Virus record (IMG/VR): IMGVR_UViG_3300009124_000085 | Span: 1 to 26,223 of that record | Strand: one strand, 5' to 3' | Source: a virus | Length of the DNA stretch: 26,223 nucleotides | Shown here: positions 4,634-16,550 of the stretch, in pieces | How the letters are laid out: each line of letters opens with the position of its first letter | How positions within the stretch are numbered: the first letter of the stretch is position 1 | Translations under genes and position numbers: made by a program | Notes under the pieces: model-generated | Database searches by the model: none | Told to the model about the DNA's origin: nothing | The model's input: only the letters and a program-made list of their open reading frames with translations

Positions 4634-5968
4634 TTATATCTCGTCTAAATCCCATGACGAAATTTTCTCCGGTGCGTCTATCGGATGCTCTGCCACAATA
4701 TAATAACCCAACGCGTCCGACGCATGAGACAGTCGCGGGTCAAAGCGTTTGTCGATCTCGCCAGACCCGCCCTCCAATACGCGCACCCCTTCAAGGTCTT
4801 TGTGGAGGTTTGGGGCCGCGTCGGGGTTAACATACAAGTTAACCTCTCCCTCACCGTCAACCAGTCGCGTGTTGACTGCGTTGACGCGTGAACGCTCCGA
4901 AGGGTTCGCCCTCGGGACGCGCATATATACGTCAAAGAACTGCCCAAGCTCGGACTGGACTATATCCCAGTCGCTACCCGAAGTCTTGGCCGTCCCTCGC
5001 GCCCCGCCTGTAGCGTCCCCGTAAATATAGACAATTCCCTCATGATTCGCCCAATCGTTTATAAGCCGCCCACAGACGGCGATGGTATTGCTGTTGCGCG
5101 GTATATGCACCTCGCCAATAACGACCGTCACCTCGGCCCCTGTTGCCGGGTCGTCCAACTCTTGGCAGACGACCGCCACGCCGGGCGAGACGTTGAAGTC
5201 GAAGCAGAAGATCAGCGGCTCACGCGGGTTATATTGGAGGTCCGTCCGTAGGTGGTCCTCGCAATACGCATAATACGCTTGACCTTGAAAATTTATAAAA
5301 CTTGCTTCGTATTCTTGGGCGAACGTCAACGCGTCCATGTGCCGCCGTGCGGCTTCTATCTCGCCCCCTGGAAGGACTAACGCGCTCACCCAATGATAGG
5401 ACCCCCATTCGCTCTCTGGCCCGTGTGCGAGCATTTGAGCCTTCGCATATTGGTCGAGGTCATAATAGTGGTTCCGGCCTTCCGGCACACCCGTAAAATC
5501 GCACCATCCATTGCGGTCTGATAGGGCCGGACGAATATGCTCTTGCCAGACGGTCGGCTTCATGTTGGCGTATTCGTCAAGCACGCCACCGTCCCACCCG
5601 ACCCCCTCAATCCGCTCCGGCTTGTCGAGTCCGAGGACATGAATCTCTGCGCCGTTGGCCAGTCGTATAATCAACTCGCTCTCGCTCGGCTCGGTCGCTC
5701 GCCATTCGGGTGCGACCAGTGCCTTAAGATCAGACCAGAAAATGCGCTTGGCCTGGTCGCGGGTCGGTGCGGCGGCGAAGTAGCGCGGGGTCGGGTAGTC
5801 GCTCCCGCGCAATGCCCGGTGTATCAGTCGCCGCTTGCCGATCAGTTCCGTCTTGCCGGAGCGTCGGCCACAAGGAAACGTGTTAAAGCGATGTGTGCCG
5901 CGATACGCCTGTATCTGCACATCTATTGGCCGGAGCGGGGTCCATCGCTTAGGAAGGACTCCCGTCAA
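4634..5968 (-). CDS. terL: Terminase large subunit (ATPase-nuclease)
   Basis: This is the DNA packaging motor, cutting concatemers and pumping DNA into the procapsid through the portal. The 444-residue protein has a Walker A-type loop GRRSGKT at residues 34-40 and a Walker B segment GGVLDEYANM with acidic pair D131-E132. The C-terminal RNase H-like nuclease has acidic candidates at D257 (FCFDFNVSPG), E286, D318 (IYGDATGG) and D418 (SHASDALGYY). Length and domain order fit a compact terminase_6-type subunit. The first codons overlap the stop of the small subunit by four bases (ATGA at 5968-5965), indicating coupled expression. Whether packaging is headful or cos-based cannot be told from the window. 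Confidence 0.93.
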   Translation of the reverse strand: MTGVLPKRWTPLRPIDVQIQAYRGTHRFNTFPCGRRSGKTELIGKRRLIHRALRGSDYPTPRYFAAAPTRDQAKRIFWSDLKALVAPEWRATEPSESELIIRLANGAEIHVLGLDKPERIEGVGWDGGVLDEYANMKPTVWQEHIRPALSDRNGWCDFTGVPEGRNHYYDLDQYAKAQMLAHGPESEWGSYHWVSALVLPGGEIEAARRHMDALTFAQEYEASFINFQGQAYYAYCEDHLRTDLQYNPREPLIFCFDFNVSPGVAVVCQELDDPATGAEVTVVIGEVHIPRNSNTIAVCGRLINDWANHEGIVYIYGDATGGARGTAKTSGSDWDIVQSELGQFFDVYMRVPRANPSERSRVNAVNTRLVDGEGEVNLYVNPDAAPNLHKDLEGVRVLEGGSGEIDKRFDPRLSHASDALGYYIVAEHPIDAPEKISSWDLDEI

Positions 5969-6342
5969 TCGCTCCCGCCGATCTGGTCGTCAATAGCGTC
6001 GAGGGCTTTGCGAAACTCTGACGCGATGTCTGCGCCGGTGCGTGTCGTTTCTACGCGGTCGGTCTGGTTCAAGCGATTCTTGCCAAGCCAGATCAGCATC
6101 GCCGACTTGCCCGACATCGCCGCGTCATACTGCGCCCGACGGATGGAAACGTCGCCTTCCGACAGGCCGCGCTCGTAGGCCTCGCGCACGTCCTTCTGTT
6201 TTAGTTTGTTGCCAAACGTAGAGCGAGCCATGCCGAGAACGTCGGCGATCTCGTCGTATGTGCAACCAAGCCGCGCCAACGCCCGAACTTGTTCTATATC
6301 GACCTTTTTGACCGGTCGCCCTTTTTTGGGTGCCTTGTCCAT
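5965..6342 (-). CDS. terS: Terminase small subunit (HTH DNA-binding)
   Basis: A 125-residue protein expected to recognise the phage packaging site and hand DNA to the large subunit. After a basic start (MDKAPKKGRPVKKVD) comes a helix-turn-helix, residues about 18-50, containing LGCTYDEIADVLGMARST. Next is a helical segment and then SGKSAMLIWLGKNRLNQTDR, a stretch I know from many small terminases where it precedes the oligomerisation region. It lies 18 bp downstream of the peptidase gene and overlaps the large subunit by four bases. The ribosome site is weak (AAGG only about 2 nt from ATG), so coupling to the upstream gene is likely. Confidence 0.85.
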   Translation of the reverse strand: MDKAPKKGRPVKKVDIEQVRALARLGCTYDEIADVLGMARSTFGNKLKQKDVREAYERGLSEGDVSIRRAQYDAAMSGKSAMLIWLGKNRLNQTDRVETTRTGADIASEFRKALDAIDDQIGGSD

Positions 6343-6360: not shown

Positions 6361-6753
6361 TTAAAATTTCGTCCTCTCGTCCCACCTGGTCACGTTGGGC
6401 CGCATATCCAAATGGATAAATATATCATATCGACCGATGCCGGTAAAACCAAGCTCTTCGGCTTTATCGGCAATGAGATCGAGAGCCTCCGGCAGTATCG
6501 GTTGCGGTAGGTGCGGAGACTTGACCGACGGCACTATATCCGTCGCAAAGATCATATGCTGAGACCTACCGGCCCCGCCTATTGCCTCGTTATGTTTCGG
6601 GGACCGAAAGCCGGAAGTGATTCGCAACGGAGCTTCCCACCAATCGCGCAATTTTTGCAGGTTCTTCATGTGCGCCCAGAAACGCGCATCCGGTGCGAAA
6701 CCCGACAACACTTCCTCCCAACTAAAATTTGGTATATCCTCGCGTAGTTGCAA
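6361..6753 (-). CDS. M15-family peptidase, candidate endolysin (TTG start)
   Basis: A 130-residue protein resembling Peptidase_M15_3 (VanY/D-Ala-D-Ala carboxypeptidase-like) enzymes, zinc peptidases that cut peptidoglycan cross-bridges. Visible motifs are LRITSGFRSPKHNEAIGGAG, then SQHMIFATDI and GIGRYDIFIHLDMR. The metal ligands would be His and Asp in SQH...ATD and the His of IHLD. The usual Gly in the S-x-H-x2-G-x-A-x-D motif is replaced (here SQHMIFATD). I chose TTG 6753 as start because a perfect AGGAGG (6766-6761) lies 7 nt upstream. The longer ATG frame from 6807 reads through the promoter and has no ribosome site. It is the first gene of the leftward late block, an unusual place for a lysin. 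No signal peptide is seen. Confidence 0.8.
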   Translation of the reverse strand: MQLREDIPNFSWEEVLSGFAPDARFWAHMKNLQKLRDWWEAPLRITSGFRSPKHNEAIGGAGRSQHMIFATDIVPSVKSPHLPQPILPEALDLIADKAEELGFTGIGRYDIFIHLDMRPNVTRWDERTKF

Positions 6754-6778
6754 ACAATTTCCTCCTATCGTTGTCAAA

Positions 6779-6807
6779 AATATATACAATGCCCTGTATA
6801 TTTTCAA
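6779..6807 (-). promoter_or_regulatory. Candidate late promoter (leftward)
   Basis: Reading leftward there is TTGAAA (6807-6802), a 17-bp spacer and TATATT (6784-6779), a good sigma70-type promoter. The predicted start near 6772 lies just upstream of the AGGAGG site of the peptidase gene. It would drive the packaging and head genes. Inferred from sequence only. Confidence 0.6.
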
Positions 6808-6822
6808 GTCTTATGTAAACCT

Positions 6823-6834
6823 TTCCACGTGGAA
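6823..6834. promoter_or_regulatory. 12-bp perfect palindrome TTCCACGTGGAA
   Basis: A perfect palindrome lies about 16 bp upstream of the -35 box of the candidate leftward late promoter, the usual position for an activator or operator site. One copy of TTATGTAAACC (6811-6821) lies between it and the promoter. The binding protein is unknown. Confidence 0.4.
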
Positions 6835-6890
6835 CACCTACAAGCCGAAGGGGAAAATATTTCCCACCTTGTTGGTCGGTGTACGAGTAA

Positions 6891-7217
6891 ACCAAGTATG
6901 TACCAAGTATATTTTTTTTACTTGGTGACCTTAACCCCATTTATAATAAAGCACTTACGAGCCGTGCACAGGTAAACAGGGTAAAAACCGTTGGTTGATT
7001 TTTTTTAGAGAAAAACCGCTTTTCTATACACGTGAGAAAGAAGGCGTTTTACTTGGTGACATTTGCATAAGTCCTATATTCTAAATGCACTTAAGGTCAC
7101 CAAGTAAGCTTTTTTTACTTGTACACAAAAAAGATAAAAGTATTATAAGTTATTAAAGAAACAAGAGGTTAAGTGTCACCAAGTAAAACCGCGTTTACTT
7201 GGTGCTTACTTGGTGAC
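6891..7217. repeat. Cluster of dispersed TTACTTGGTGAC sites in both orientations
   Basis: Five exact copies of the 12-mer TTACTTGGTGAC occur: forward at 6918-6929, 7049-7060 and 7206-7217, and reverse-complement at 7096-7107 and 7175-7186. A 10/12 copy lies at 7195-7206. Two more 8-bp ACCAAGTA cores lie at 6891-6898 and 6902-6909. Two copies extend to a perfect 17-bp inverted repeat (6918-6934 with 7091-7107). The stretch is AT-rich and carries no gene I can support. Possible roles are operators for a phage regulator, iterons of a replication origin, or a partition/packaging site. Nothing in the sequence decides between them. Confidence 0.8.
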
Positions 7218-7236
7218 CTATGGGGTATAGTCGGTA

Positions 7237-7314
7237 TTATGTAAACCAATAGGGTATAAGCTGTAGCTTATAAGCTATAGCTTATAGGGTATATGGCGTT
7301 GGATTATGTAAACC
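7237..7314. repeat. TTATGTAAACC repeats bracketing two overlapping 18-bp palindromes
   Basis: TTATGTAAACCAAT occurs at 7237-7250 and 7304-7317, and its first 11 bases also occur at 6811-6821. Between the first two lie TATAAGCTGTAGCTTATA (7255-7272, palindromic apart from the centre) and TATAAGCTATAGCTTATA (7269-7286, a perfect 18-bp palindrome), overlapping by four bases with a 14-bp period. This looks like a paired operator or origin element. No gene is supported here. Confidence 0.7.
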
Positions 7315-7335
7315 AATTAGGAGGGGCTACGCCAG

Positions 7336-7489
7336 AAAAGAACCTCCAAAACCTCCAAAAGCCCTTTTGAAGGTTTTGTCGGTTCGTTTTTTTGGATGAG
7401 TTAGGGTAAATAAAAAAGAACCTCCAAAACCTCCAAAAGCCCTTTTGAAGGTTTTGGAGGTTCTTTTTTAGGATGCGTTAGGGCAAATA
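7336..7489. repeat. Tandem duplication of a ~77-bp terminator-bearing unit
   Basis: Two direct copies lie head to tail, 7336-7412 and 7414-7489, each starting AAAAGAACCTCCAAAACC and ending GTTAGGG(T/C)AAATA. Each contains a hairpin. The right copy is perfect, while the left copy has mismatches in the right stem arm (TC for GA, and CG for CT further out). This suggests duplication followed by decay, or selection on only one copy. Confidence 0.85.
7412..7469. terminator. Strong bidirectional intrinsic terminator
   Basis: A perfect 21-bp stem (7412-7432 with 7449-7469) begins with six A and ends with six T, so either strand gives a hairpin followed by a U-tract. The loop contains a further CAAAAG/CTTTTG pairing. 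It lies between the repressor gene and the late promoter and would stop transcripts from either side. Confidence 0.85.
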
Positions 7490-7529
7490 AAAACCGCCCG
7501 ACCAGAACCGAGGAGAACTGGCCGAGCGG
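7485..7529 (-). terminator. Intrinsic terminator of the repressor gene
   Basis: On the minus strand, CCGCTCGGCCAG (7529-7518) pairs with CTGGTCGGGCGG (7505-7494) over 12 bp, including two G-U wobbles. It is followed by TTTTTATTT (7493-7485). The loop is 12 nt. It lies about 60 bp after the stop of the leftward repressor gene, so it ends that transcript. Confidence 0.7.
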
Positions 7530-7590
7530 ATTGTGCCGGAGTCCAAACCGGCGATACCCGAGGAGAGTATCAAGGAGGTATACGCTTAAT

Positions 7591-7830
7591 TTAGGGCCTC
7601 TGTAATGGCCCGTCAACGTCTTTGTGGCGGTATCCGATGATTGACTCGGGCCGACAGTTTAACGCGCTACAAAGCCGCCCAACGGTCCGTAGCGTCGGAC
7701 TATAGCGACCCGTCAGCATGTTAGAGATTAGAGCCGGATACGTTCCCGCTCTTTTGGCGAGTTCGCGGTAGCTGTCGATCTCTGCGTCGGCCATCGCTTC
7801 ATTAAGTTTTGTTCGGTCAATCATTAGCAT
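7591..7830 (-). CDS. Small Cro/cI-like HTH repressor
   Basis: A 79-residue protein (MLMIDRTKLNEAMADAEIDS...) made almost entirely of a lambda-repressor-like DNA-binding domain. The HTH covers about residues 18-45: SYRELAKRAGTYPALISNML, followed by GRYSPTLRTVGRLCSALNCR, the typical fourth and fifth helices of the HTH_3 family. There is no oligomerisation or protease-sensing C-terminal domain, so it is a short repressor or Cro analogue. I chose ATG 7830 because the predicted transcription start (about 7831-7830) falls on it. The frame from 7866 would include the promoter, and no ribosome site is seen. It faces the early promoter and probably binds the GTTAG...CTAAC palindromes. It is the best candidate for a lysis/lysogeny or early/late switch. 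Confidence 0.75.
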   Translation of the reverse strand: MLMIDRTKLNEAMADAEIDSYRELAKRAGTYPALISNMLTGRYSPTLRTVGRLCSALNCRPESIIGYRHKDVDGPLQRP

Positions 7831-7981: not shown

Positions 7982-8380
7982 ATGACACAGCCCATTAAAA
8001 ACATTAAAAAAGCTACTGCAATCATGGCCGACGGAACAAAGCACCGTGTCACCTTCTGCGGAATGGACGAATTAGGGAATTATATCGTCCGACGTGGAAA
8101 ATATAATTACACTTACACAGCAGGCACCGAATGCAAGGAAATCCGCATACAGGTTGCCGACACGATAACCGTCCAACAAGATCGGTTGAGCGGTGTCGTT
8201 ATATATGACCGCAAAGTCACTCGCACTGGCAAGCCATATCGTAGGAGCAACGGACAGCACTGGATAGAGTGCAGAGTATCAGAAGACGGCGGCACGGCAT
8301 ACGCGCATTACCAGATTGGTGTAGAAGCGCCCTTCGGTTGGGACTATGATGAATGGATAAACGAAGGGCTTGCGGCATAG
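7982..8380 (+). CDS. Early protein of unknown function (132 aa)
   Basis: First gene after early promoter 1. ATG 7982 follows a purine-rich leader with GAGGAG and AAGGA; an upstream TTG frame overlaps the promoter and is rejected. The protein is soluble, with no membrane segment. The first 60 residues look like a small beta-rich domain (TAIMADGTKHRVTFCGMDEL, then a Tyr-rich GKYNYTYTAGTECK). The C-terminal half has GKPYRRSNGQHWIECRVSED and ends with an acidic, aromatic tail (FGWDYDEWINEGLAA). I do not recognise a family. Position suggests an immediate-early factor, such as a host takeover or anti-defence protein, but that is inference from location only. A terminator follows directly, so it is probably transcribed as a single gene. 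Confidence 0.75.
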   Translation: MTQPIKNIKKATAIMADGTKHRVTFCGMDELGNYIVRRGKYNYTYTAGTECKEIRIQVADTITVQQDRLSGVVIYDRKVTRTGKPYRRSNGQHWIECRVSEDGGTAYAHYQIGVEAPFGWDYDEWINEGLAA

Positions 8381-8387
8381 CTCAGAA

Positions 8388-8419
8388 GGGAGGGGTTCCG
8401 GCCCCTCCCAACTTTTTTT
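8388..8419 (+). terminator. Intrinsic terminator after the first early gene
   Basis: GGGAGGGG (8388-8395) pairs perfectly with CCCCTCCC (8402-8409) around TTCCGG. The T-tract 8413-8419 follows and is also the beginning of promoter cassette copy 2. Confidence 0.88.
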
Positions 8420-8510
8420 GATTATTGTTAAAAAAAGTATTGACATTAAAAAGAAACGATTGTATCTTGTGTATTAGAAGTTAGTAATGACGCTAACGCA
8501 AACCGAGGAG
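8415..8510 (+). repeat. Promoter-operator-ribosome site cassette, copy 2
   Basis: Near-identical to 7879-7973. Differences are concentrated in the spacer (TAAAAAGAAA against TAGAAGGCAA) and around +1. The -35, -10, palindrome arms and ribosome site are kept, which argues for selection on these elements. Confidence 0.9.
8440..8497 (+). promoter_or_regulatory. Early rightward promoter 2 with operator
   Basis: TTGACA at 8440-8445, a 17-bp spacer and TATCTT at 8463-8468. The operator-like half-sites GTTAG (8480-8484) and CTAAC (8493-8497) have the same 8-bp gap as in copy 1. Confidence 0.8.
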
Positions 8511-8517
8511 CTTCAAA

Positions 8518-8964
8518 ATGACTTACGAAATCAACGAAATCAACATCGCAGACATCGAATGGATGGGCGGTTGCATGGAGGATGACGCAGGGTATCTAAA
8601 ATATAGCGCGGTCCATGCTTGGATCGGCGACGAAACGCTCTGCGGCGCAACGCCTCGCGGAGAAATCACCGACGTATCGCACGGCAACGAGTGCAAGCGT
8701 TGCCTCAAGAAGGTCGCAAAGATTGAAGCGTTAGAGGTCGAGGCCGAAGTCGAGCCGGTCGAGGCCGAGGTCGAGCCAGTCGTTGACATCGACTACCTAA
8801 TCGCCCACAACAGCGGCTTCTCAAGCCTCGACGATATGCTCAACGCTCGCGGCGGGTATCGCCCCTCATGCGATGTAAGCCGGTTAGAGATGGAATTGAT
8901 AGCTGACGCATACGACGCGGCACAGTCGGCCAGAGGCGACGAGAGAAGGGCTTTCCGCTACTAA
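8518..8964 (+). CDS. Early acidic protein of unknown function (148 aa)
   Basis: Driven by early promoter 2, with ACCGAGGAG at 8502-8510 placed 7 nt before ATG 8518. The N-terminal 70 residues have a possible metal site, with Cys in TLCGAT and the CKRC pair of HGNECKRCLKK. Residues about 77-90 are a duplicated VEAEVEP motif, encoded by a 21-bp tandem DNA repeat (8737-8757 and 8758-8778, two base differences). The C-terminal part (from YLIAHNSGFSSLDD) is a separate helical segment ending in ERRAFRY. The acidic repeat probably acts as a linker. I do not recognise the family. No membrane segment is seen. Confidence 0.72.
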   Translation: MTYEINEINIADIEWMGGCMEDDAGYLKYSAVHAWIGDETLCGATPRGEITDVSHGNECKRCLKKVAKIEALEVEAEVEPVEAEVEPVVDIDYLIAHNSGFSSLDDMLNARGGYRPSCDVSRLEMELIADAYDAAQSARGDERRAFRY

Positions 8965-8973
8965 GAGAGGAGG

Positions 8974-8991
8974 GAGGGGTTTCGGCCCCTC
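8974..8991 (+). terminator. Hairpin after the 148-aa gene, no T-tract
   Basis: GAGGGG (8974-8979) pairs with CCCCTC (8986-8991) around TTTCGG. It resembles the terminator at 8388 but lacks the U-tract, so it is probably a weak terminator, an mRNA-stabilising hairpin or a decayed copy. Confidence 0.45.
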
Positions 8992-9014
8992 GCCATAACC
9001 GAGGAGACTTGACC

Positions 9015-9254
9015 ATGACCTTTACGCATACCTTCGACGACCGCGACGAGAACGGCCCCGACCTTACGATTGAGGTCGGAACTGATGCAGGATCGCCCGC
9101 CTGCCGTTACAACGAATATCCGGCAGAACCGGCGGATTGGTGGATCGAGGAAATTACCGACGCAGACGGCAACCACTACGACGAGGAGTATTTCACGGCT
9201 CAAGAATGGGCCAATATCGAAAACGCCGCAGAGGCGGCACTGGAGGCGAACTAA
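9015..9254 (+). CDS. Small acidic protein of unknown function (79 aa)
   Basis: ATG 9015 lies 8 nt after ACCGAGGAG (8998-9006) and is preferred over an in-frame TTG two codons earlier. The protein is very acidic and Trp/Tyr-rich (MTFTHTFDDRDENGPDLTIE, ADWWIEEITDADGNHYDEEY) and ends AAEAALEAN. Strong negative charge on a small phage early protein is compatible with a DNA-mimic or inhibitor, but no family is recognised. Its stop overlaps the next start (TAATG), so the two genes are translationally coupled. Confidence 0.7.
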   Translation: MTFTHTFDDRDENGPDLTIEVGTDAGSPACRYNEYPAEPADWWIEEITDADGNHYDEEYFTAQEWANIENAAEAALEAN

Positions 9255-9532
9255 TGGAACAGGAAATAATCAAGCTCAGACGCGAGGGCAAGACAACGAC
9301 AGAGATCACCAGAACGACCGGCGTGAGCTACTACCGACAACGCCAAATCTACGACGCGCACAACGTCCCGACTCCGAGCAGATACGGCGCGACCCGTCGC
9401 CGGATTCTCGAACTCCTCGACGTGGGCGCAATGACCCAGAGCGAGATCGCTCGGACGCTCGGCGTATCGCGGCAACTCGTCAGTGAGGTCAAGCAAATCG
9501 AATTGACAAAAACAGGTGTTGACAAGGAGTAG
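9254..9532 (+). CDS. Small two-HTH DNA-binding regulator (92 aa)
   Basis: Begins at ATG 9254 inside the previous stop (TAATG). Residues 1-30 (MEQEIIKLRREGKTTTEITR followed by TTGVSYYRQRQ) read as one helix-turn-helix of the homeodomain-like resolvase/transposase type. Residues about 45-80 form a second, clearer one: RRRILELLDVGAMTQSEIAR then TLGVSRQLVSEVKQ. Two HTH units in tandem suggest a sequence-specific DNA binder, perhaps a regulator of early transcription or a replication accessory. There is no catalytic domain. Early promoter 3 begins inside its last codons (TTGACA at 9519), so it could control its downstream neighbours. Confidence 0.75.
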   Translation: MEQEIIKLRREGKTTTEITRTTGVSYYRQRQIYDAHNVPTPSRYGATRRRILELLDVGAMTQSEIARTLGVSRQLVSEVKQIELTKTGVDKE

Positions 9533-9547
9533 GCTTGTATATATCTT
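9519..9547 (+). promoter_or_regulatory. Early rightward promoter 3 (no operator)
   Basis: GTGTTGACA, a 17-bp spacer and TATCTT (9542-9547) reproduce the core of promoters 1 and 2, including the identical -10 hexamer. The GTTAG-CTAAC palindrome is absent, so this promoter should escape the control proposed for the other two. Another TTGACA lies at 9503-9508. Confidence 0.7.
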
Positions 9548-9580
9548 TAATAACATCACCAACAACCGAGGAGCTTGACA

Positions 9581-9691
9581 ATGAAAACATTTATGAACAA
9601 CGCGGCGGCATTTTTAGCGGTCGCCATCGGCTACTTGGCCGTCGAATGGTTCGCTGAGGCACTAAGCCACGCGATGGGAGCCGGACTATGA
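9581..9691 (+). CDS. 36-aa single-span membrane peptide
   Basis: ATG 9581 follows ACCGAGGAG (9565-9573) by 7 nt. The peptide starts MKTFMNNAAAFLAVAIGYLA and continues to an acidic/aromatic segment with EWFAEALSHAMGAGL. Residues about 8-26 form one hydrophobic helix, so it is probably an inner-membrane peptide. It is the first gene after promoter 3 and overlaps the next gene by four bases (ATGA). Function is unknown; small early membrane peptides in phages may act in superinfection exclusion or as host inhibitors, but nothing here is diagnostic. Confidence 0.65.
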   Translation: MKTFMNNAAAFLAVAIGYLAVEWFAEALSHAMGAGL

Positions 9692-9897
9692 AAGTCAAGG
9701 ACTGCCCGTATTGCACGGACCGCATGTATATCTACATGAAGCAAGAGCGGTGGGTCTGCGCCGACCACGCCCGATGCGGCTATACGCTCGACGCTACGCC
9801 CGACGAGATCGCCGCCGCCGTCAACGTCTATAGCAAGCGCATCCGGCGCGAGGTAACGGCTCAGACGGGCAACGTGGCCCCTGCTGTAGAGATATAA
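9688..9897 (+). CDS. Small zinc-ribbon protein (Lar-like)
   Basis: A 69-residue protein with C6-x2-C9 (KDCPYCTDRM) and C24...C30 (WVCADHARCGY), followed by DEIAAAVNVYSKR. The layout CPxC, a short beta hairpin with an aromatic-V-C pair, then an Ala-rich helix ending near W/YxxR resembles Lar-type restriction-alleviation proteins and related phage zinc fingers. Lar proteins modulate host restriction; that function is inferred from the fold only. Its ATG overlaps the stop of the membrane peptide, with GGGAG 7 nt upstream. It is the last gene before a 240-bp structured non-coding stretch. Confidence 0.68.
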   Translation: MKVKDCPYCTDRMYIYMKQERWVCADHARCGYTLDATPDEIAAAVNVYSKRIRREVTAQTGNVAPAVEI

Positions 9898-9902
9898 ACT
9901 AA

Positions 9903-10012
9903 TGGGGCGAGCGGCGGGAATAGCGGAGTGCAGACTGGGGAGTCGAATCACCGCGAAAAACTGCGAGAGCGATGGGGAGCATTCGCGACGACCGCAGGGG
10001 CCGCTCGCCCCA
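9903..10012 (+). ncRNA. Candidate structured RNA closed by a 13-bp stem
   Basis: TGGGGCGAGCGGC (9903-9915) is perfectly complementary to GCCGCTCGCCCCA (10000-10012), closing an 84-nt interior. Inside are a GACT-GGGG-AGTC hairpin (9933-9944) flanked by GCG..GTG/CAC-CGC pairings, and a second hairpin around GCGATGGGGAGCATTCGC (9969-9986). The two hairpin loops share GGGGAG. There is no T-tract, so it does not look like a simple terminator. The outer stem followed by A and CCA (10013-10016) recalls a tRNA end, but there is no T-arm or anticodon arm, so it is not a canonical tRNA. An 82-codon frame crosses it but has no ribosome site and Arg/Gln-rich composition. Confidence 0.5.
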
Positions 10013-10039
10013 ACCAACATACAACAGATTAAACCCTAT

Positions 10040-10067
10040 TCGCGGCAACGAGAGGAGAGGGCCGCGA
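10040..10067 (+). other. Hairpin in leader of the putative ssDNA-binding gene
   Basis: TCGCGGC (10040-10046) pairs with GCCGCGA (10061-10067) around a 14-nt purine-rich loop containing GAGAGGAGAGG. It lies 70 bp before the next ribosome site, within the stretch 9898-10137 that has no supported gene. It may stabilise or regulate the leader. Confidence 0.4.
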
Positions 10068-10137
10068 GAAATAAAACCAATCAATCAAATCACCGACAAC
10101 GACCAGAGTGTCAACGTCAACTTAGGAGATTAGAAAA

Positions 10138-10761
10138 ATGGGATTTTTGAACTTAAACAGCGAAAGAAAATATCTTCCCCGCCTTGATATGGACCTCCGC
10201 GCCGGACGATTCTTCGCCGTTGAGCGCACACAGAACGCCGCCGGAGAATGGGAGTCGGAGAAGATCGAAGTTGAAAAGCCGCGTTTCGTCGCCGACCTCG
10301 CCAATTGCGAAATCGGATGGACGGCCTTTATCGATAAACGCCCAGACTCCGTTATGCGTCACTGCGCCGACGGTATGCCGCCTCAACCCACGCCGGAACA
10401 TAAAGCGGCGTTCGGGATCAACGTCAAGATCGTCGGCGGCGACTTCGACGGTTCGCTTCGTAAATTCGGAAAACAGGGCATAACCATCGGGAAAGCGTTC
10501 GACGATTTGGTCGACGCGTGGCAAGCGTTGCCGGAAGCAACCGACCCGACGAAATGCCCCGTCGTAGCTGTCACCGGCACGACCCCCGTCAAAGCCGGTC
10601 AGTCAACAAATTACGCCCCTAAATGGGGGATTGTCGAGTTTGTCGAACGCCCCGCAGAGTTCGACGACCACATCCCTGCGCGTCGTGACATTGCCGCAGA
10701 GAAAGCGGCAGAGGAGGCCACACAGGCCGCCGTCGCCGCTGATGATGTAGAGTTTCTTTAA
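10138..10761 (+). CDS. Putative single-stranded DNA-binding protein (207 aa)
   Basis: ATG 10138 follows TTAGGAG by about 10 nt. The 207-residue protein has a compact N-terminal domain (MGFLNLNSERKYLPRLDMDL onwards), beta-rich with aromatic and Lys residues, and about 40 residues of Ala/Glu-rich linker. The C-terminus is acidic with a final hydrophobic pair (AADDVEFL), like the DDxPF tip of bacterial and T7-type SSBs that recruits partners. It precedes a RusA-like resolvase and a PrimPol-helicase, where an SSB is expected. I do not recognise the core domain, so the function is inferred from tail and neighbours. It could instead be another recombination accessory protein. Confidence 0.6.
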   Translation: MGFLNLNSERKYLPRLDMDLRAGRFFAVERTQNAAGEWESEKIEVEKPRFVADLANCEIGWTAFIDKRPDSVMRHCADGMPPQPTPEHKAAFGINVKIVGGDFDGSLRKFGKQGITIGKAFDDLVDAWQALPEATDPTKCPVVAVTGTTPVKAGQSTNYAPKWGIVEFVERPAEFDDHIPARRDIAAEKAAEEATQAAVAADDVEFL

Positions 10762-10772
10762 ACCCTTAAAAC

Positions 10773-10819
10773 GCCCGACGGCCCCCCCTCCTCTTGGGGC
10801 CGTCGGGCTATATTATTTT
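10773..10819 (+). terminator. Intrinsic terminator between SSB-like gene and RusA gene
   Basis: GCCCGACGGCCCC (10773-10785) pairs perfectly over 13 bp with GGGGCCGTCGGGC (10796-10808), followed by TATATTATTTT. It would reduce transcription of the replication genes relative to the SSB-like gene. The T-rich tail runs directly into the TTG start proposed for the resolvase. Confidence 0.85.
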
Positions 10820-11207
10820 GAATCAGACACTCATACTTGACGGCGAGCTACCCGCCCTAAACGAGATAATCGCGGCAAGTAAATCGCACTGGTCGCGCTA
10901 CTCTCGCGTCAAGCGCGGCAATACGCAGATCGTCGCGCTTGAGTGTCGAGCGCAAAAACTAAAACCCGTTGACGCGCCCGTTGAGGTCACGTTCCGTCAC
11001 TACAGACCCAACCGCCGGAAAGACCCCGACAACGTAGCCGGAGGCGCACAAAAGGCTATTCTTGACGGATTAGTCAAAGCGAAGATTCTCCCCGACGACA
11101 CAATGCGTTATATTAGTTCTCTCCATCACTTTTTCCAGATTGACCGCAAAAAACCGAGGATAGAGGTACAAATCAATGTCACAAATCAAGAGGAAATTCG
11201 CGCTTGA
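10818..11207 (+). CDS. RusA-like Holliday junction resolvase (TTG start)
   Basis: A roughly 129-residue endonuclease predicted to resolve four-way junctions in replicating or recombining phage DNA. The diagnostic stretch is NRRKDPDNVAGGAQKAILDG followed by LVKAKILPDDTMRYI, which carries the conserved Asp residues of the RusA family (RRKDPDN, ILDGL, ILPDD). The N-terminus LILDGELPALNEIIAASK also fits, since RusA proteins start at this beta strand. No ATG is available. TTG 10818 gives the family-typical start; an upstream TTG at 10794 lies inside the terminator stem and is less likely. The ribosome site is poor, so expression is probably low. The 3' end overlaps the PrimPol gene by 32 bp. Confidence 0.85.
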   Translation: MNQTLILDGELPALNEIIAASKSHWSRYSRVKRGNTQIVALECRAQKLKPVDAPVEVTFRHYRPNRRKDPDNVAGGAQKAILDGLVKAKILPDDTMRYISSLHHFFQIDRKKPRIEVQINVTNQEEIRA

Positions 11208-13506
11208 ATACGCACAAAGGGGTTGGCAGGTTTTTCCCTGCCATTTCATAACGACGAGCGGCACCTGCTCATGCGGCGAGGATTGCGACAGTGCGGGAAA
11301 ACATCCAATGACGTACGGCGGTCTAAACGACGCGACAACGGACGAGCAACAAATCCGAGATTGGTGGAGTCAATCGCCCTACGCGAATGTCGGCATACGC
11401 ACCGGCGAGGTTTCCGGCATCACTGCGATTGATATCGACCCACGCCACGACGGAGATGCGACATGGCGCGAACTGGAGCAGACCGTCGGCCCGATACCCG
11501 ACACACCAACCCAGACGACCGGCGGCAACGGGCAACATATTATAGTCAACTATACGCCGCGCCTTCATACACAGAACGATGTCGCGCAGGGTATCGACAT
11601 TAAAAACGACGGCGGCTATATCCTTGCTGAACCGAGCAACCACGCGAGCGGTGGGACATACGAGTGGGAACTGGCTTTGCATTACGACGACCACGCGCCC
11701 GTCGATCTGGCCGAGGCTTGGCCCAATGGCCTCGACAGGCTTGTTGAGCTACAGCAGGGCAATCGACCCCAGTTGACGCGCACGACGCGCCAGACAGCCG
11801 CAGAAGGCCAAATAGAGCGCGAGGCGGGGCAGAACCTCGCGGCGGGGCAGGTTATCGCCGAGGGGTCGCGGAACGCTACACTGACGAGCATCGCCGGATC
11901 GCTACGCCGTCGCGGTCTTGACGCGGAACAGATCGCCGCGATGCTCCATCAATACAATCAACAGTTCTGCTCGCCGGAATTAGACGCAACCGAAGTTGAC
12001 CGCATCGCGCAGGGCATGATGCGCTACGAACCCGCGCCCCCGCTCCCGTCAACCATCGACCCCGACCTCGGCGTGACCGCTGAGTCGGCTTCTGCGCCTT
12101 CGGGCGGCGGGTATAACGTTGTCGGTCTACCGATGACCGACGGAGGCAATAGGGACCGTCTGGTCGCTCGCTACGGCTCGCAAATACTCTACGTTCCCGA
12201 ACAGGGTTGGCACCTCTGGGATGGCGTGCGTTGGCGACTTGACAACGAGACCCGCATCCAAGAAATGGCCCTCGACACAGCGCGAACGATACGCGCAGAG
12301 GAGCGAACCGGTATCGTCGATAAGCAAGGCGTTGACATTGCCGAGAAATGGAGCCTGTCGAGCGAGTCCCTCGTTCGCGTAAACGCGATGATTAAGCTCG
12401 CGCAATCACACCCGTCAATCGTCTGCGGCGTATCCGACCTTGATACGCATCCGTTTCTCTACAACGCGGCGAATACTACGGTTGATCTGCTGACCGGCGA
12501 AACACTCGACCCCGACCCGACGCACCGCTTGACCCAACGCTCGCGAATGATCTACAAACCCGACGCGACCTGCCCTTACTGGTGCGAGTTTGTCGGTCAA
12601 ATCTTACGCGAAGATAAAGCCGTAATACGCCACCTTCAAAAATACCTCGGCTTGGCGTTGACCGGCGACATGACGAGCGAGGCCATGTTTATTTTATACG
12701 GCGAAGGGGCCAACGGTAAGTCAATCCTGCTTGAAGTCCTCGCGTATCTCATGGGCGATTATCTAAGCACTGCACCGGCCCACACGTTTCTTTCCTCTTC
12801 GCGTAACGAGTCGATCCGCAACGACCTCGCCATGTTGCGCGGTGCGCGGTTGGTGACGGTATCGGAAACCAACAAAGGGTCATCGCTCGACGAGGCTGTA
12901 ATTAAGCGCACGGTATCCGGCGACCAAGAAACGGCGCGGTTTCTCCATAAAGAATATTTCTCATTCCATCCACAGTATAAAATCCTTTTAGCGACCAACA
13001 ACAAGCCAGAAATCAAAGGCGGCACCCACGGCACATGGCGACGACTTCACTTGATAGAGTTCGGCGTAAAGTTCGGCAGTGCCGGACATCCGGCGGCAGG
13101 TAAAAAAGACGAGATAATCGCACGACTCAAAAGCGAGGCGAGCGGAATCTTAAACTGGCTTATTGAGGGGTATCAACTCTACCGCGCCGAGGGATTAGAA
13201 CAGCCGGACGCGGTGCGCGATTCCACTGCGAGCTACCGAGAGGACCAAGACCCACTAATAGATTTCTTCGGCACCTGTTGCGAGATCGGCAGTGACTACA
13301 CTGTGACCACGAGCGACCTGCGCGAAGCCTACAACGCACATACAGGCGAAGATCGGTCTGCGGTCTGGTTCGGTCGGCTTATGTCGGAACACGGATACAA
13401 GCCGGAAAGCGTTGGCGGCAGGGGCAACCGCACCCGCGTATATCGCGGGCTTATGTTGAGCGAGGACGGGCAAGCCCTGCTCGCCCGTAATGATTTCCAA
13501 TATTAA
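11176..13506 (+). CDS. PrimPol-D5 family primase-helicase
   Basis: A 776-residue replication protein that would synthesise primers and unwind DNA at the fork. Residues about 5-190 are the bifunctional primase/polymerase N-terminal domain: a Cys cluster (CSCGEDC, 31-37), the catalytic D86-I-D88 (TAIDIDPRHDG), GGNGQHIIV with H121, and the GGYILAEPSNHASGG strand. A central linker (about 190-420) connects to the P4/D5-type SF3 helicase: Walker A GEGANGKS at 509-516, Walker B-like RLVTVSE, sensor 1 LLATNNKP near 604-611 and an Arg finger GTWRRL near 618-623. ATG 11176 has GAGGT upstream and overlaps the resolvase gene. The fusion is typical of self-sufficient phage or satellite replicons and explains the absence of a separate primase or helicase gene. 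No DNA polymerase gene is visible. Confidence 0.92.
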   Translation: MSQIKRKFALEYAQRGWQVFPCHFITTSGTCSCGEDCDSAGKHPMTYGGLNDATTDEQQIRDWWSQSPYANVGIRTGEVSGITAIDIDPRHDGDATWRELEQTVGPIPDTPTQTTGGNGQHIIVNYTPRLHTQNDVAQGIDIKNDGGYILAEPSNHASGGTYEWELALHYDDHAPVDLAEAWPNGLDRLVELQQGNRPQLTRTTRQTAAEGQIEREAGQNLAAGQVIAEGSRNATLTSIAGSLRRRGLDAEQIAAMLHQYNQQFCSPELDATEVDRIAQGMMRYEPAPPLPSTIDPDLGVTAESASAPSGGGYNVVGLPMTDGGNRDRLVARYGSQILYVPEQGWHLWDGVRWRLDNETRIQEMALDTARTIRAEERTGIVDKQGVDIAEKWSLSSESLVRVNAMIKLAQSHPSIVCGVSDLDTHPFLYNAANTTVDLLTGETLDPDPTHRLTQRSRMIYKPDATCPYWCEFVGQILREDKAVIRHLQKYLGLALTGDMTSEAMFILYGEGANGKSILLEVLAYLMGDYLSTAPAHTFLSSSRNESIRNDLAMLRGARLVTVSETNKGSSLDEAVIKRTVSGDQETARFLHKEYFSFHPQYKILLATNNKPEIKGGTHGTWRRLHLIEFGVKFGSAGHPAAGKKDEIIARLKSEASGILNWLIEGYQLYRAEGLEQPDAVRDSTASYREDQDPLIDFFGTCCEIGSDYTVTTSDLREAYNAHTGEDRSAVWFGRLMSEHGYKPESVGGRGNRTRVYRGLMLSEDGQALLARNDFQY

Positions 13507-13517
13507 CCGAGGAGCGT

Positions 13518-14507
13518 ATGAGATACGGATCAGTTTGTAGCGGCGTAGAAGCCGCCAGTTTGGCGTGGGAGCCGTTAGGATGGCAACCGCAGTGGTTCAG
13601 CGAAATTGAGGCATTCCCCTCTGCTGTATTACAACATCATTGGCCCGATGTGGCGAACTTAGGAGATATGACGAATGAATACTTCCGAAACAACACAACA
13701 CCAGTTGACCTTCTCGTGGGCGGCACCCCCTGCCAATCCTTCTCCCTCGCCGGACTTAGAGAAGGACTGGATGACGAGCGTGGCAACCTCGCCCTTGAGT
13801 TTTGCCGCGTTGTTGATCGACTCACGCCCCGCTGGGTTGTCTGGGAAAACGTCCCCGGTGTCTTGTCATCACATGGAGGACGGGACTTTGGTACCATCGT
13901 CGGGGCGATGGCAGAACTCGGGTATAATCTCGCGTGGAGAATCTTGGACGCTCAACACTACGGAACACCACAAAGACGCAGACGAGTGTTCCTTGTCGGA
14001 CATCTTGGAGCCGATGAGCGAGGAGCTGCAGCGGTATTGTTTGAGTCCCACAGCTTGCAAGGGCATACTGCGCCGAGCAGAGAAAAGGGGCAAGGCACTA
14101 CCGTATACACTACATCAAGCATTGGCGGATACAGTCAAGGAGTCGGAACGTTAAGGGCAAGTGGGGGGGACTTAGGCGGTGGAAGTGAAAACCTTGTGGC
14201 CAAATGTATCACTGCAGGGCAGCGATATGATTTTGAGAGCGAAACTTTCCCTATTAGCTTTTGGGCGCAGTCTATGCGAGCGCGCCGGTTAACACCGCGC
14301 GAGTGCGAACGTCTGCAAGGAATGCCCGACGATCACACACGCATACCGTGGCGTGGGAAATCTGCTGAAGATTGCCCCGATGGGCCGCGCTACAAAGCCA
14401 TCGGCAACTCGATGGCCGTGCCTGTGATGCGTTGGATTGGCGAACGCATACAAATGGTTGATAATATTTTAAACCGAGGAGAAAAGCACAATGGACAACG
14501 TATATAG
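13518..14507 (+). CDS. dcm: DNA (cytosine-5) methyltransferase
   Basis: A 329-residue enzyme that transfers a methyl group from SAM to C5 of cytosine, probably protecting phage DNA from host restriction. Motifs are in canonical order: I GSVCSGVEAASLAWE, IV GGTPCQSFSLAG with nucleophile C72, VI WENVPG (E110), VIII PQRRRRVF (151-158), IX LTPRECERLQGMPDD and X YKAIGNSMAVPV. The stretch between VIII and IX (about 165-255) is the target recognition region; its sequence specificity cannot be read. ACCGAGGAG lies 3 nt before the ATG. No restriction endonuclease is seen nearby, so it is an orphan enzyme. An unusually long second frame overlaps residues 53-212. Confidence 0.95.
   Translation: MRYGSVCSGVEAASLAWEPLGWQPQWFSEIEAFPSAVLQHHWPDVANLGDMTNEYFRNNTTPVDLLVGGTPCQSFSLAGLREGLDDERGNLALEFCRVVDRLTPRWVVWENVPGVLSSHGGRDFGTIVGAMAELGYNLAWRILDAQHYGTPQRRRRVFLVGHLGADERGAAAVLFESHSLQGHTAPSREKGQGTTVYTTSSIGGYSQGVGTLRASGGDLGGGSENLVAKCITAGQRYDFESETFPISFWAQSMRARRLTPRECERLQGMPDDHTRIPWRGKSAEDCPDGPRYKAIGNSMAVPVMRWIGERIQMVDNILNRGEKHNGQRI
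13675..14154 (+). CDS. Overprinted ORF inside the methyltransferase gene (159 aa)
   Basis: This frame lies in +1 relative to the methyltransferase. ATG 13675 has a strong internal ribosome site, AGGAG at 13661-13665, spaced 9 nt. The protein reads like a normal soluble one: MNTSETTQHQLTFSWAAPPA, then GKTSPVSCHH, SSGRWQNSGI, ECSLSDILEP and CLSPTACKGILRRAEKRGKA near the C-terminus. From memory, very similar C-terminal motifs (SLSDILE...LSxxACxGILRRAEKRGKxLP) recur in hypothetical proteins of many phages that carry such methyltransferase genes. That would suggest a conserved overlapping gene rather than chance. The function is unknown. It may instead be a by-product of methyltransferase codon constraints, because the overlapped residues are themselves conserved. 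Confidence 0.5.
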   Translation: MNTSETTQHQLTFSWAAPPANPSPSPDLEKDWMTSVATSPLSFAALLIDSRPAGLSGKTSPVSCHHMEDGTLVPSSGRWQNSGIISRGESWTLNTTEHHKDADECSLSDILEPMSEELQRYCLSPTACKGILRRAEKRGKALPYTLHQALADTVKESER

Positions 14508-14919
14508 TTTTCTGCGTCAACTGGACGCTGTAGGGATCGGTCTTGAGTTGGCCGACGGCGAGCAACTCAAAATGTCGGGCGGGTCGAATCTAACGCCCGA
14601 CCAACGCGCCCATATCATCGCCAACAGGGGCGCGGTCATGGCGGCAATCAAAGCGCAATGCGTGGCGATGGGCGAGATGCTCAACCGCGTAGAACAGGCG
14701 ACAACGTGGTCAGCATTAGAGCAGATCGTCGCGGAGGGGTGTGAGGCGTGGAAAGCGGGCAGGCTCCAGACGGCCCACTACGAGCGCGTAACGGTCGCCG
14801 CGTGTAACCATGCGCGAGAGATACCGCCGAGCCATTCGATCATCAACAACGCGATAGTTCGCACCGCAGAGGTCAACGCGCAGGTCGTCGAGGTGTTCGA
14901 CGGGGAGCGCGTCGCGTGA
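14491..14919 (+). CDS. TubC-N-like domain protein of unknown role (142 aa)
   Basis: ATG 14491 lies 9 nt after ACCGAGGAG (14473-14481) and overlaps the end of the methyltransferase gene by 17 bp. Residues 4-54 (FLRQLDAVGIGLELADGEQL, then NLTPDQRAHIIANRGAVMAA) match the pattern of the TubC N-terminal docking domain, a small fold known from megasynthases and also found alone in phage and plasmid proteins. The remainder is helical (TTWSALEQIVAEGCEAWKAG and a VTVAACNHAREIPPS segment) and not recognised. No synthetase genes are present, so a docking role in natural-product synthesis is unlikely. A protein-protein or DNA-associated role near the replication genes is more plausible. Its stop overlaps the next start (GTGA). 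Confidence 0.6.
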   Translation: MDNVYSFLRQLDAVGIGLELADGEQLKMSGGSNLTPDQRAHIIANRGAVMAAIKAQCVAMGEMLNRVEQATTWSALEQIVAEGCEAWKAGRLQTAHYERVTVAACNHAREIPPSHSIINNAIVRTAEVNAQVVEVFDGERVA

Positions 14920-15485
14920 GCGAGGCTATATATAAATATTGGTCAAGCCGACTTGAGGGGCTAAATTTTGGTTGTTGTTTCCGTTGCAATTATAAGACAA
15001 AAAATTTACAACGAGCGCACATAAATGCGCGAGTAGCCGGAGGCAATGACACAGCCGAAAACTTGCATCTACTGTGCCGCCTATGCCATACTGGGTCTGA
15101 GTTATTAGAGGGAGACAAATATTGGGCATGGTTTAAATCTGATACCGCACCCATTAAATATTATCGTGAATTATTACAATTAAATGTATCGAGTCGAACG
15201 TCTACAGCGATGGCGCAGAAGCGTAAGCGAGGCGAGAAAACGGGTGGAGATGTTCCCTTCGGGTATCGCCTACTGGAGGGTGGACGGTTGGCCGTAGACC
15301 CCGACGAACAAGAGGTTATTTCTCTTATTCGCCAACGACGCGAAAACGGCGAGTCCTACCGTAAGATCGGAGCAGAGTTAGAGCGGCGAGGTATCTTGAC
15401 TCGTCGCGGGAAAAGCGTCTGGCATCCTCAGGTAATCAAACAAGTATTGAATCAGAAAATAACACCTAAGCATTGCGTCGCATAA
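14916..15485 (+). CDS. HNH nuclease fused to a serine-recombinase-type DNA-binding domain
   Basis: A 189-residue protein starting with GTG 14916 (GTGA overlap with the upstream stop; GGGAG upstream). Residues 18-70 form an HNH domain: C21/C24 (CCFRC), RAHINARVAGG with H35, DTAENLHLLCRLCH with N49, H51, C54, C57 and H58. Residues about 95-185 (KRKRGEKTGGDVPFGYRLLE, then DEQEVISLIRQRRENGESYR and KIGAELERRGILTRRGKSVW) are like the Recombinase domain that follows the catalytic domain of large serine recombinases, but no resolvase catalytic domain is present. The nuclease half is clearly AT-richer than the rest and than neighbouring genes. This suggests a recently joined or mobile homing-type endonuclease. 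It is the last gene of the early block. Confidence 0.75.
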   Translation: MSEAIYKYWSSRLEGLNFGCCFRCNYKTKNLQRAHINARVAGGNDTAENLHLLCRLCHTGSELLEGDKYWAWFKSDTAPIKYYRELLQLNVSSRTSTAMAQKRKRGEKTGGDVPFGYRLLEGGRLAVDPDEQEVISLIRQRRENGESYRKIGAELERRGILTRRGKSVWHPQVIKQVLNQKITPKHCVA

Positions 15486-15641: not shown

Positions 15642-16550
15642 TTATTCTGCCCTGCGTGGCGTGGCTTTATACGTCCAGATGTTGTTGACTTTATGGCGCG
15701 TCATATCGACAAACCACCCGCCCATTGGACGGGGAGCCTTGCCGGTCTCGTGCCACCATCCCGACCCATCTCCGGCAAACTCGTCTTTGTAAGTCGGTAG
15801 CTGTAGGTGATGCTGTGTCTCGGCATACGTCACGCCGTTTGAGTTGATCCGCTCTCGCCGCATCTCCATTGACCACGCCTCGTGGATATGGCCGGAGCAG
15901 ATTATATCCGCGTCGGGTAAAAACGTAGCGCGTCGGTTGGTGGCGATAACGCCTTTAGTCACTGGACCGCCACCGCCGGAGCCGTGCGTGAAATAGATTT
16001 TCTTGGTGTCGCTAATATAGCTGTTCGAGTGTTGGATATAGCGAAGAAACACCCACCCGCTATAGCCCATTCTCTGAATCTCTGAGCCGGTGCGTAGGTT
16101 CAACTCGTTGATCGTCGCGCCGAGCAGGTCAAACTCTGTATGCCGCAAAATAGAGGTCTCATGGTTGCCCTCGGCCCATCCTGCGATATACGGCGCGTAT
16201 GGCTCCAGAAACGCCACAGAATCCTCTACCAGCGCGTTCAAATAATCCGAGCGTTTATACTGCGGGAGCAGTGCGCTCTTTGATCCTCGGCGATCTGACG
16301 CGCCCTGCATCGAATCAAACCAGTCACCGAGAAAGAGCGCACGACCATTAGCCGCGACTACCTCGTCCAAGTGCTTTTTGATCAACTTCCGGTCGGCGTG
16401 GGCTGAGTCAAAATGTTGGTCCGACGCGAGCAGAACGGGAACCGTCCATTCTGCGCCCATCGGCGTAAACGAGACCGAGATGCACTTTTCGCTCAACCGC
16501 TCGACGGTCGGCCCGATGGGTCGGCGTTTTTTTGCCGCTTTAGTTCCCAT
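15642..16550 (-). CDS. Calcineurin-like metallophosphoesterase
   Basis: A 302-residue two-metal hydrolase. The five conserved blocks are visible: D44-x-H46 (LASDQHFDS), GDWFD (75-79), GNHE (128-131), THGSGGGG and SGHIHE, with a late HHLQL segment also likely near the active site. The first 35 residues are basic and not part of the core. The substrate cannot be deduced; relatives act on phosphoproteins, nucleotides, cyclic nucleotides or DNA. The ATG overlaps the end of the upstream membrane-protein gene by 11 bp, with only a weak ribosome site. Its place in the late block suggests late synthesis, for example in nucleotide recycling or removal of a host signal, but this is inference. Confidence 0.85.
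   Translation of the reverse strand: MGTKAAKKRRPIGPTVERLSEKCISVSFTPMGAEWTVPVLLASDQHFDSAHADRKLIKKHLDEVVAANGRALFLGDWFDSMQGASDRRGSKSALLPQYKRSDYLNALVEDSVAFLEPYAPYIAGWAEGNHETSILRHTEFDLLGATINELNLRTGSEIQRMGYSGWVFLRYIQHSNSYISDTKKIYFTHGSGGGGPVTKGVIATNRRATFLPDADIICSGHIHEAWSMEMRRERINSNGVTYAETQHHLQLPTYKDEFAGDGSGWWHETGKAPRPMGGWFVDMTRHKVNNIWTYKATPRRAE

Follow-up and report, generated by a model that had tools for sequence, protein, structure and literature searches.

What is the function of the gene-free DNA that separates the two operons of a tailed phage, and which protein reads the repeated sites that it contains? The stretch of DNA analyzed in this work (hereafter the window) is a 26,223-base fragment of the genome of such a phage, and its gene layout was read against a near-complete, 32.5-kb relative (the L008/L087 contig; additional tail genes are on L133). 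The genes for head, tail, and lysis functions are transcribed leftward, from 26223 to 15642 and from 6735 to 1. The early operon runs rightward from 7983 to 15485 and includes genes for a 92-aa protein with two tandem helix-turn-helix (HTH) domains, a RusA resolvase, and a PrimPol/D5-helicase protein. The AT-rich stretch without genes (6736-7590) lies between the two operons, with a leftward gene encoding a Cro/CI-like protein at its right edge. At the far end of the early operon (14916-15485) an HNH endonuclease domain is fused to a serine-integrase 'Recombinase' domain that is devoid of the catalytic domain.

An earlier note on this DNA had described five exact copies of the 12-mer TTACTTGGTGAC, one 10/12 copy, two half-sites, and two inverted repeats within the control region, and had judged the arrangement to be far beyond chance. 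Recounting confirmed this description. The five exact copies (three on the plus and two on the minus strand) are all placed within 6918-7217, and none was found elsewhere in the whole 26,223-base record G000, which is identical to the window; a reversed control 12-mer has no exact copy in this record. The 10/12 copy is present at 7195 (plus strand), and both inverted repeats are real, i.e., one of 17 bp (6918-6934 and 7091-7107, 156 bp apart) and one of 12 bp (7049-7060 and 7096-7107, 35 bp apart), each sitting inside a longer imperfect inverted repeat. The two half-sites exist, but they turned out to be parts of full sites (6887-6898 and 6899-6910). When up to two mismatches were allowed, nine matches to the 12-mer were found in the window against 1.3 expected, and none of 100 shuffles reached nine; the matches outside the array (at 15999, 16323, and 20898) have two mismatches each. 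The stretch is AT-rich, as claimed (34% GC, compared with about 54% for the genome), and in the alignment with 11 other contigs the array is likewise non-coding. Counting of the 12-mer in the rest of the record and in relatives, which the earlier note had proposed as a check, revealed that the motif is neither scattered nor missing from relatives, and a local control function therefore stands. Single-strand folding of the array (z of -6.7) reflects the inverted sites only, Rfam gave no matches, and no tRNA was found.

Searches of the viral collection with the terminase, primase, and repressor sequences yielded 11 further contigs with an alignable control region. Together with the window they represent two array types. 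Type A (the window, L006, L088, L086, L017, and L089) is characterized by TTACTTGGTGAC-like sites, most of which are composed of TTACTTGG followed by TGAC, and type B (L009, L014, L023, L136, L096, and L122) has TTACTYGGACGK at the aligned positions, where the sites aligned with those of type A read TTACTYGG followed by ACGK. This comparison extended the array to about 12 sites over 6879-7217 (about 340 bp, both orientations), adding to the first list three sites with a second tail (6879-6890, 6964-6975, and 7115-7126) and one degenerate site (6972-6983); the frames of the sites at 6879 and 6964 were read straight from the sequence. The presence of this array in the relatives indicates that it is functional. 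The features of the control region are as follows.

6879 to 7217, both orientations: array of about 12 candidate protein-binding sites with fixed spacing and no gene.
6879 to 6890, minus strand: site 1, second tail, TTACTCGTACAC (TTACTTGGACGG-like in type B), from direct reading and alignment.
6887 to 6898, minus strand: site 2, TACTTGGTTTAC, third tail, much alike in types A and B.
6899 to 6910, minus strand: site 3, ATACTTGGTACA, forming an inverted pair with the site at 6918 around a T-rich spacer.
6918 to 6929, plus strand: site 4, exact TTACTTGGTGAC.
6964 to 6975, minus strand: site 5, second tail, TTACCTGTGCAC (TTACTTGGACGK in type B), from direct reading and alignment.
6972 to 6983, minus strand: site 6, degenerate in type A (TACCCTGTTTAC), TACTTGGTTTAC in type B.
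6999 to 7037, no strand assigned: conserved core, TTTTTTTTAGAG-AAAA..CGCTT...TATACACG.GA.AAA, kept in types A and B.
7049 to 7060, plus strand: site 7, exact.
7096 to 7107, minus strand: site 8, exact, forming an inverted pair with the site at 7115 around a T-tract.
7115 to 7126, plus strand: site 9, second tail, TTACTTGTACAC (TTACTTGGACGK in type B).
7175 to 7186, minus strand: site 10, exact.
7195 to 7206, plus strand: site 11, 10/12 copy, TTACTTGGTGCT.
7206 to 7217, plus strand: site 12, exact.
7110 to 7159, no strand assigned: 50-bp segment of lowest stability in the window (16% GC), adjoining and partly overlapping the pair of sites 8 and 9; a possible unwinding element.
6779 to 6807, minus strand: promoter-like TTGAAA-17-TATATT (a consensus match only), directed toward the peptidase-terminase-head operon.

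The 12-mer has no internal dyad over its full length; it is asymmetric, with a constant half and a tail, and the two halves differ sharply in their variation. The first eight bases of the sites are nearly unchanged between the types, whereas the tails (positions 9-12) are switched at nearly all sites. Amongst the eight sites scored, fixed A/B differences occupy 23 of 32 tail columns compared with 4 of 64 columns of the constant half (Fisher p = 3.4e-11) and 45 of 233 columns between the sites (p = 5e-9). Site 2, with the same tail in both types, is an exception to this switch. Moreover, the second tail (TACAC-like) is present at three type-A positions, at which type B has its common tail. Within one type, nucleotide identity reaches 96% in the sites, 89-93% between the sites, and 83-87% in the two flanking genes, and the higher identity of the sites indicates that they are under selection.

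The geometry of the array is rigid. In every fully covered array of both types the site-to-site distances are 17, 19, 50-51, 80-81, 46-47, 19, 60, and 20 bp; distances between successive sites are the same within 1 bp across all complete arrays, and the first-to-last site distance is 319-321 bp in the nine complete ones. Three inverted pairs (6899/6918, 7096/7115, and 7175/7195) are spaced 19-20 bp apart, the first two around a T-rich spacer. The array is separated from the leftward peptidase gene by 152-155 bp in all 12 contigs and from the repressor gene by 200-1069 bp. Between types A and B the array is 69% identical, while the Cro/CI-like gene is 84% identical, which is practically the value obtained within type A (83%). 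As the repressor gene is equally alike in A-A and A-B comparisons, the array type is not linked to its neighbor and behaves like an independently moving allele.

Several other elements were observed around the array. Three exact direct copies of TTATGTAAACC (6811-6821, 7237-7247, and 7304-7314) flank it; this motif is absent elsewhere in the window, nearly unchanged in both array types, and perhaps the target of a second reader. A parS-like palindrome (6821-6836, CTTTCCACGTGGAACA), matching TGTTCCACGTGGAACA at 14 of 16 positions, is located between the promoter-like site and the array and is conserved in nearly all relatives; the L023 version is one mismatch away from TGTTTCACGTGAAACA, and those of L017 and L089 have a CACATG center. 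After the repressor gene, a 56-bp terminator-like hairpin is duplicated (7336-7391 and 7414-7469), and its copy number appears to vary among relatives. In L009 (approximately 620-1340), an insert of about 0.8 kb, carrying a putative second methyltransferase gene (leftward, recognized by eye), is placed between the array and the repressor gene. Another methyltransferase-like gene was found between the peptidase and small terminase genes of L006 (1796-3020), L008, L009, L014, and L096, and it is absent from the window, L017, and L023. Its constant ParB-like N-terminus and constant C-terminus enclose a middle part that is very different in each genome, which points to an exchangeable modification gene.

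The conserved core (6999-7037), used for scanning the viral collection, retrieved only this phage group (13 contigs), and no third array type was present among the contigs examined, all of which were of type A or B. Scanning of the same collection with the pattern TTTACTYGGNNNTTACTYGG indicated 32 stretches, many of them probably due to chance. Its matches in L099, L102, L107, and L113, phage contigs for which no PrimPol or tandem-HTH relative was detectable, fall in ACTYGG-rich arrays; the non-coding region that these contigs have in common is rich in ACTYGG and ATGTTCT repeats and is reminiscent of the array of the window. L021 (7560-8330) and L022 (4160-4770), contigs with a 67% identical terminase, have a long run of ATTAGATAC, GATACAAAA, and GATGCAA repeats after the terminase gene. 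Neither megablast with most of the window nor distant blastn with the control region gave any match in 50,697 phage records, and searches including these records found no cultured relative.

In the next step, the proteins that could read the sites were considered.

9254 to 9532, plus strand: 92-aa early protein with two tandem HTH domains, the candidate reader.
11176 to 13506, plus strand: PrimPol/D5-type helicase replication protein, a possible partner or rival reader.
7591 to 7818, minus strand: Cro/CI-like HTH_26 protein, not favored as the reader.
5965 to 6342, minus strand: small terminase subunit (TerS), not favored as the reader.

A reader able to tell TGAC from ACGK would be expected to vary with the array type, and near-identical HTH proteins are therefore a poor fit. 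The adjacent Cro/CI-like protein was disfavored in this way, its HTH being essentially the same in nine genomes of both types (with a single L-to-F change in L014), and so was TerS, which occurs in two versions, each accompanied by both array types, with HTH regions identical or nearly so. These sequence comparisons leave an early-operon protein or a host factor. Of the two HTH proteins that the earlier note had suggested for a gel shift, the Cro/CI-like one is thus disfavored and the 92-aa protein is still the best candidate.

The predicted structure of the 92-aa protein comprises two three-helix HTHs (mean pLDDT 81, pTM 0.54). A profile comparison matched the second HTH to that of the TipsytheTRex repressor (7r6r; E = 0.0014). 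As a monomer, this repressor uses two domains to recognize an asymmetric 13-mer, and its residues R45 and Q46 make the contacts to guanines (PMC9283540). The stretch S-R-Q-L-V-S-E, aligned to the R45/Q46 region, does not vary among the five versions of the 92-aa protein, and the start of the C-terminal recognition helix is also identical in all five. The sequence of the N-terminal recognition helix is SYYRQRQIYDAHN or SYYHQRKLYNAHN in the type-A versions, compared with SYYQQRRIYARHN in L090; it is also altered, less than in L090, in the type-A contig L089. Searches for a type-B contig with the tandem-HTH gene gave only L090, so that the comparison of HTHs between the types involves a single, probable type-B protein from a contig whose own control region is missing. 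L090 and the type-B contig L009 originate from one sample and nearly meet at both ends, where just 99 and 178 bp separate them, and on this circumstantial link L090 is probably of type B; L096, considered as another partner of L090, showed no overlap with it. It fits these observations that the C-terminal HTH would read the constant half and the N-terminal HTH the tail. In tblastn against the phage records, the tandem-HTH protein had no matches, and a fold search of the PDB gave generic HTHs only (no E-value below 0.001, Z under 8). The top profile match, 8vd6, was discarded: it aligned through repeated short stretches and is apparently a designed repeat protein, coming from the protein-design paper that cites it.

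Taken together, we tentatively favor, as the likeliest single reading, a fixed-geometry docking array for an early two-half reader, most likely the 92-aa protein, that acts as a replication origin. An early DNA-binding protein of the phage would read the asymmetric 12-mer in two halves, with one module on the constant half (WTACTYGG) and another on the tail, which varies (mostly TGAC for type A and ACGK for type B). Several copies, often on inverted pairs 19-20 bp (two helical turns) apart, would assemble into one nucleoprotein complex, which could open the very AT-rich DNA beside the pair 7096/7115 and recruit the PrimPol/D5 helicase; the same complex may also gate the adjoining leftward late promoter, and a combined role of origin and late promoter is thus possible. 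What the sequences show directly is the array with its conservation, rigid spacing, and concerted tail switch, and its variation independently of the neighboring HTH genes; the identity of the binding protein, its oligomerization, and the origin function are what we infer here. As to the origin, the PrimPol, RusA, and tandem-HTH genes belong to one early operon, the array lies beside the start of this replication operon, its repeat density is origin-like, it contains the 50-bp segment of lowest stability (7110-7159), and two inverted pairs converge on a T-tract. Third-position GC skew gave no replication-switch signal at the array, and the change of raw GC skew there also follows gene direction. 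Also against this reading, the constant distance to the late promoter-like site would suit regulation of the late operon just as well, and one reader with a single specificity leaves the second tail at three type-A sites unexplained. A further, more doubtful proposal is that a fixed-geometry origin or control complex owes its specificity to an exchangeable pair, made up of the tail in about ten sites and one of the two HTHs of a small initiator.

The origin is ranked first and a late-gene switch second. In the latter case, which we regard as possible but rather unlikely, the two-HTH protein or another early regulator would bind upstream of the leftward peptidase-terminase-head promoter and either activate or repress it by means of a looped complex, with no role in replication. 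It is in agreement with this proposal that the closest solved HTH relative is a phage repressor, that the promoter-like TTGAAA-17-TATATT is present at 6807-6779 at a distance from the array that is fixed within 3 bp in relatives, and that the spacing to the peptidase gene is fixed as well, while the other side of the array varies by almost 900 bp. On the other hand, a dozen sites over 340 bp are many for one promoter, they reach more than 400 bp upstream, and the promoter is a consensus match of a kind for which shuffled sequence gives similar counts.

It is less likely still that the array is an origin whose tail is read by the C-terminal region of the PrimPol/D5 helicase, as in P4 alpha, in place of the tandem-HTH protein. 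Replication proteins of pRN1 and P4 have C-terminal winged-helix or origin-binding domains (PMC4234260), and the L090 protein carries five changed positions near its end relative to every type-A copy (E-to-D, ES-to-DR, one deleted R, and N-to-S), in a region that is otherwise nearly invariant. Against this, the protein is 95-98% identical overall, the AlphaFold model of its C-terminus is unusable (pLDDT 36), no Pfam domain was found there, and such proteins were proposed to use a stem-loop located 3' of the gene that encodes them (PMC4234260), a place where in the window the next gene follows after only 11 bp. A scan of the genome collection with the PrimPol sequence indicated one distant locus, in Nitrosomonas eutropha.

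The earlier note had named an origin, a looping regulator array, and a packaging or partition site as possible functions, and of these the last two fare worst. A centromere-like partition region of a phage persisting as a plasmid is improbable: no integrase was seen in the window or in the listed further stretch of one relative, and the parS-like palindrome, 40-60 bp from the array, is conserved in most relatives, but no ParA or stand-alone ParB gene was seen in the parts examined, the palindrome is a 14/16 match, and a role for host ParB is guesswork. Slightly more improbable is a packaging (pac/cos) site bound by the terminase. The array is indeed upstream of the terminase genes, and in L091, another PrimPol-encoding phage contig, a different array (GTAATCGTTCGG, both orientations, 14287-14630) is located directly upstream of an Sf6-like small terminase gene, but identical or near-identical TerS HTH regions occur with types A and B, which makes packaging by the phage small terminase unlikely. 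Finally, chance, a low-complexity artefact, or a functionless duplicated mobile repeat, for which the AT-richness of the stretch could speak, is negligible in view of the shuffles (0/100), the conservation, the fixed spacing, and the concerted switch of the tails.

Returning to the array as a docking site for a two-half reader, it was compared with known systems. Operators and stoperators of cluster A mycobacteriophages and their immunity repressors (L5, TipsytheTRex; PMC9283540, PMC6550527) share with it asymmetric sites (12-13 bp), a two-module reader (here a candidate), and a site sequence that varies between relatives together with the reader, and in the 92-aa protein the second HTH is similar to that of the repressor, including its R-Q pair. 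Unlike in cluster A, where more than 20 sites are distributed genome-wide in an orientation following transcription, the exact sites are confined here to one 340-bp region and occur in both orientations. The repressor combines an N-terminal HTH with a Stoperator domain of 107 residues; the candidate reader has 92 aa and carries a second HTH in place of that domain, and the match concerns the HTH alone (E = 0.0014). The array resembles the stoperator system in the mode of reading but, by the placement and orientation of its sites, is not a member of it.

Similarly to iteron origins (lambda O, RSF1010 RepC, P4 alpha), the array is a cluster of short repeats by an easily melted AT-rich stretch, with a replication helicase/primase encoded nearby; iterons, however, are arranged in one direction with regular helical spacing, while the orientations here are mixed and the spacing (17 to 81 bp) is irregular but fixed, and no known family of iteron-binding proteins was found. 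In RepA_N iterons (pSK41, PLE), inverted sub-repeats converge on an A/T tract (PMC7145576), as the pairs 6899/6918 and 7096/7115 do on a T-tract, but the other sites are single, direct, or not placed around a T-tract, and no RepA_N protein was matched among the window proteins scanned against Pfam. With PrimPol replicons of the pRN1 type (PMC4234260) the phage shares a replication protein with PrimPol and D5-like helicase parts, although the pRN1 origin is a stem-loop 3' of the rep gene (PMC4234260); here, the array is 4 kb upstream of the PrimPol gene, and the next gene starts 11 bp after it, unlike in the pRN1-type layout.

Types A and B may be seen as a natural experiment, in which a DNA-binding protein and about ten sites would have changed their specificity together: in a bipartite 12-mer, one half is constant and the other switched nearly everywhere, with hardly any shift in spacing. 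Should the tandem-HTH protein be the reader, its 92 residues would offer a simple model for how phage initiators or regulators change their specificity, and the origin or the late switch would be identified for a group of environmental phages (32 kb) to which none of 50,697 phage records gave a close match. If, furthermore, the tail and the HTH are an exchangeable pair, close relatives among these phages would fall into incompatible site types, i.e., immunity groups at the level of replication, between which alleles could be swapped by recombination.
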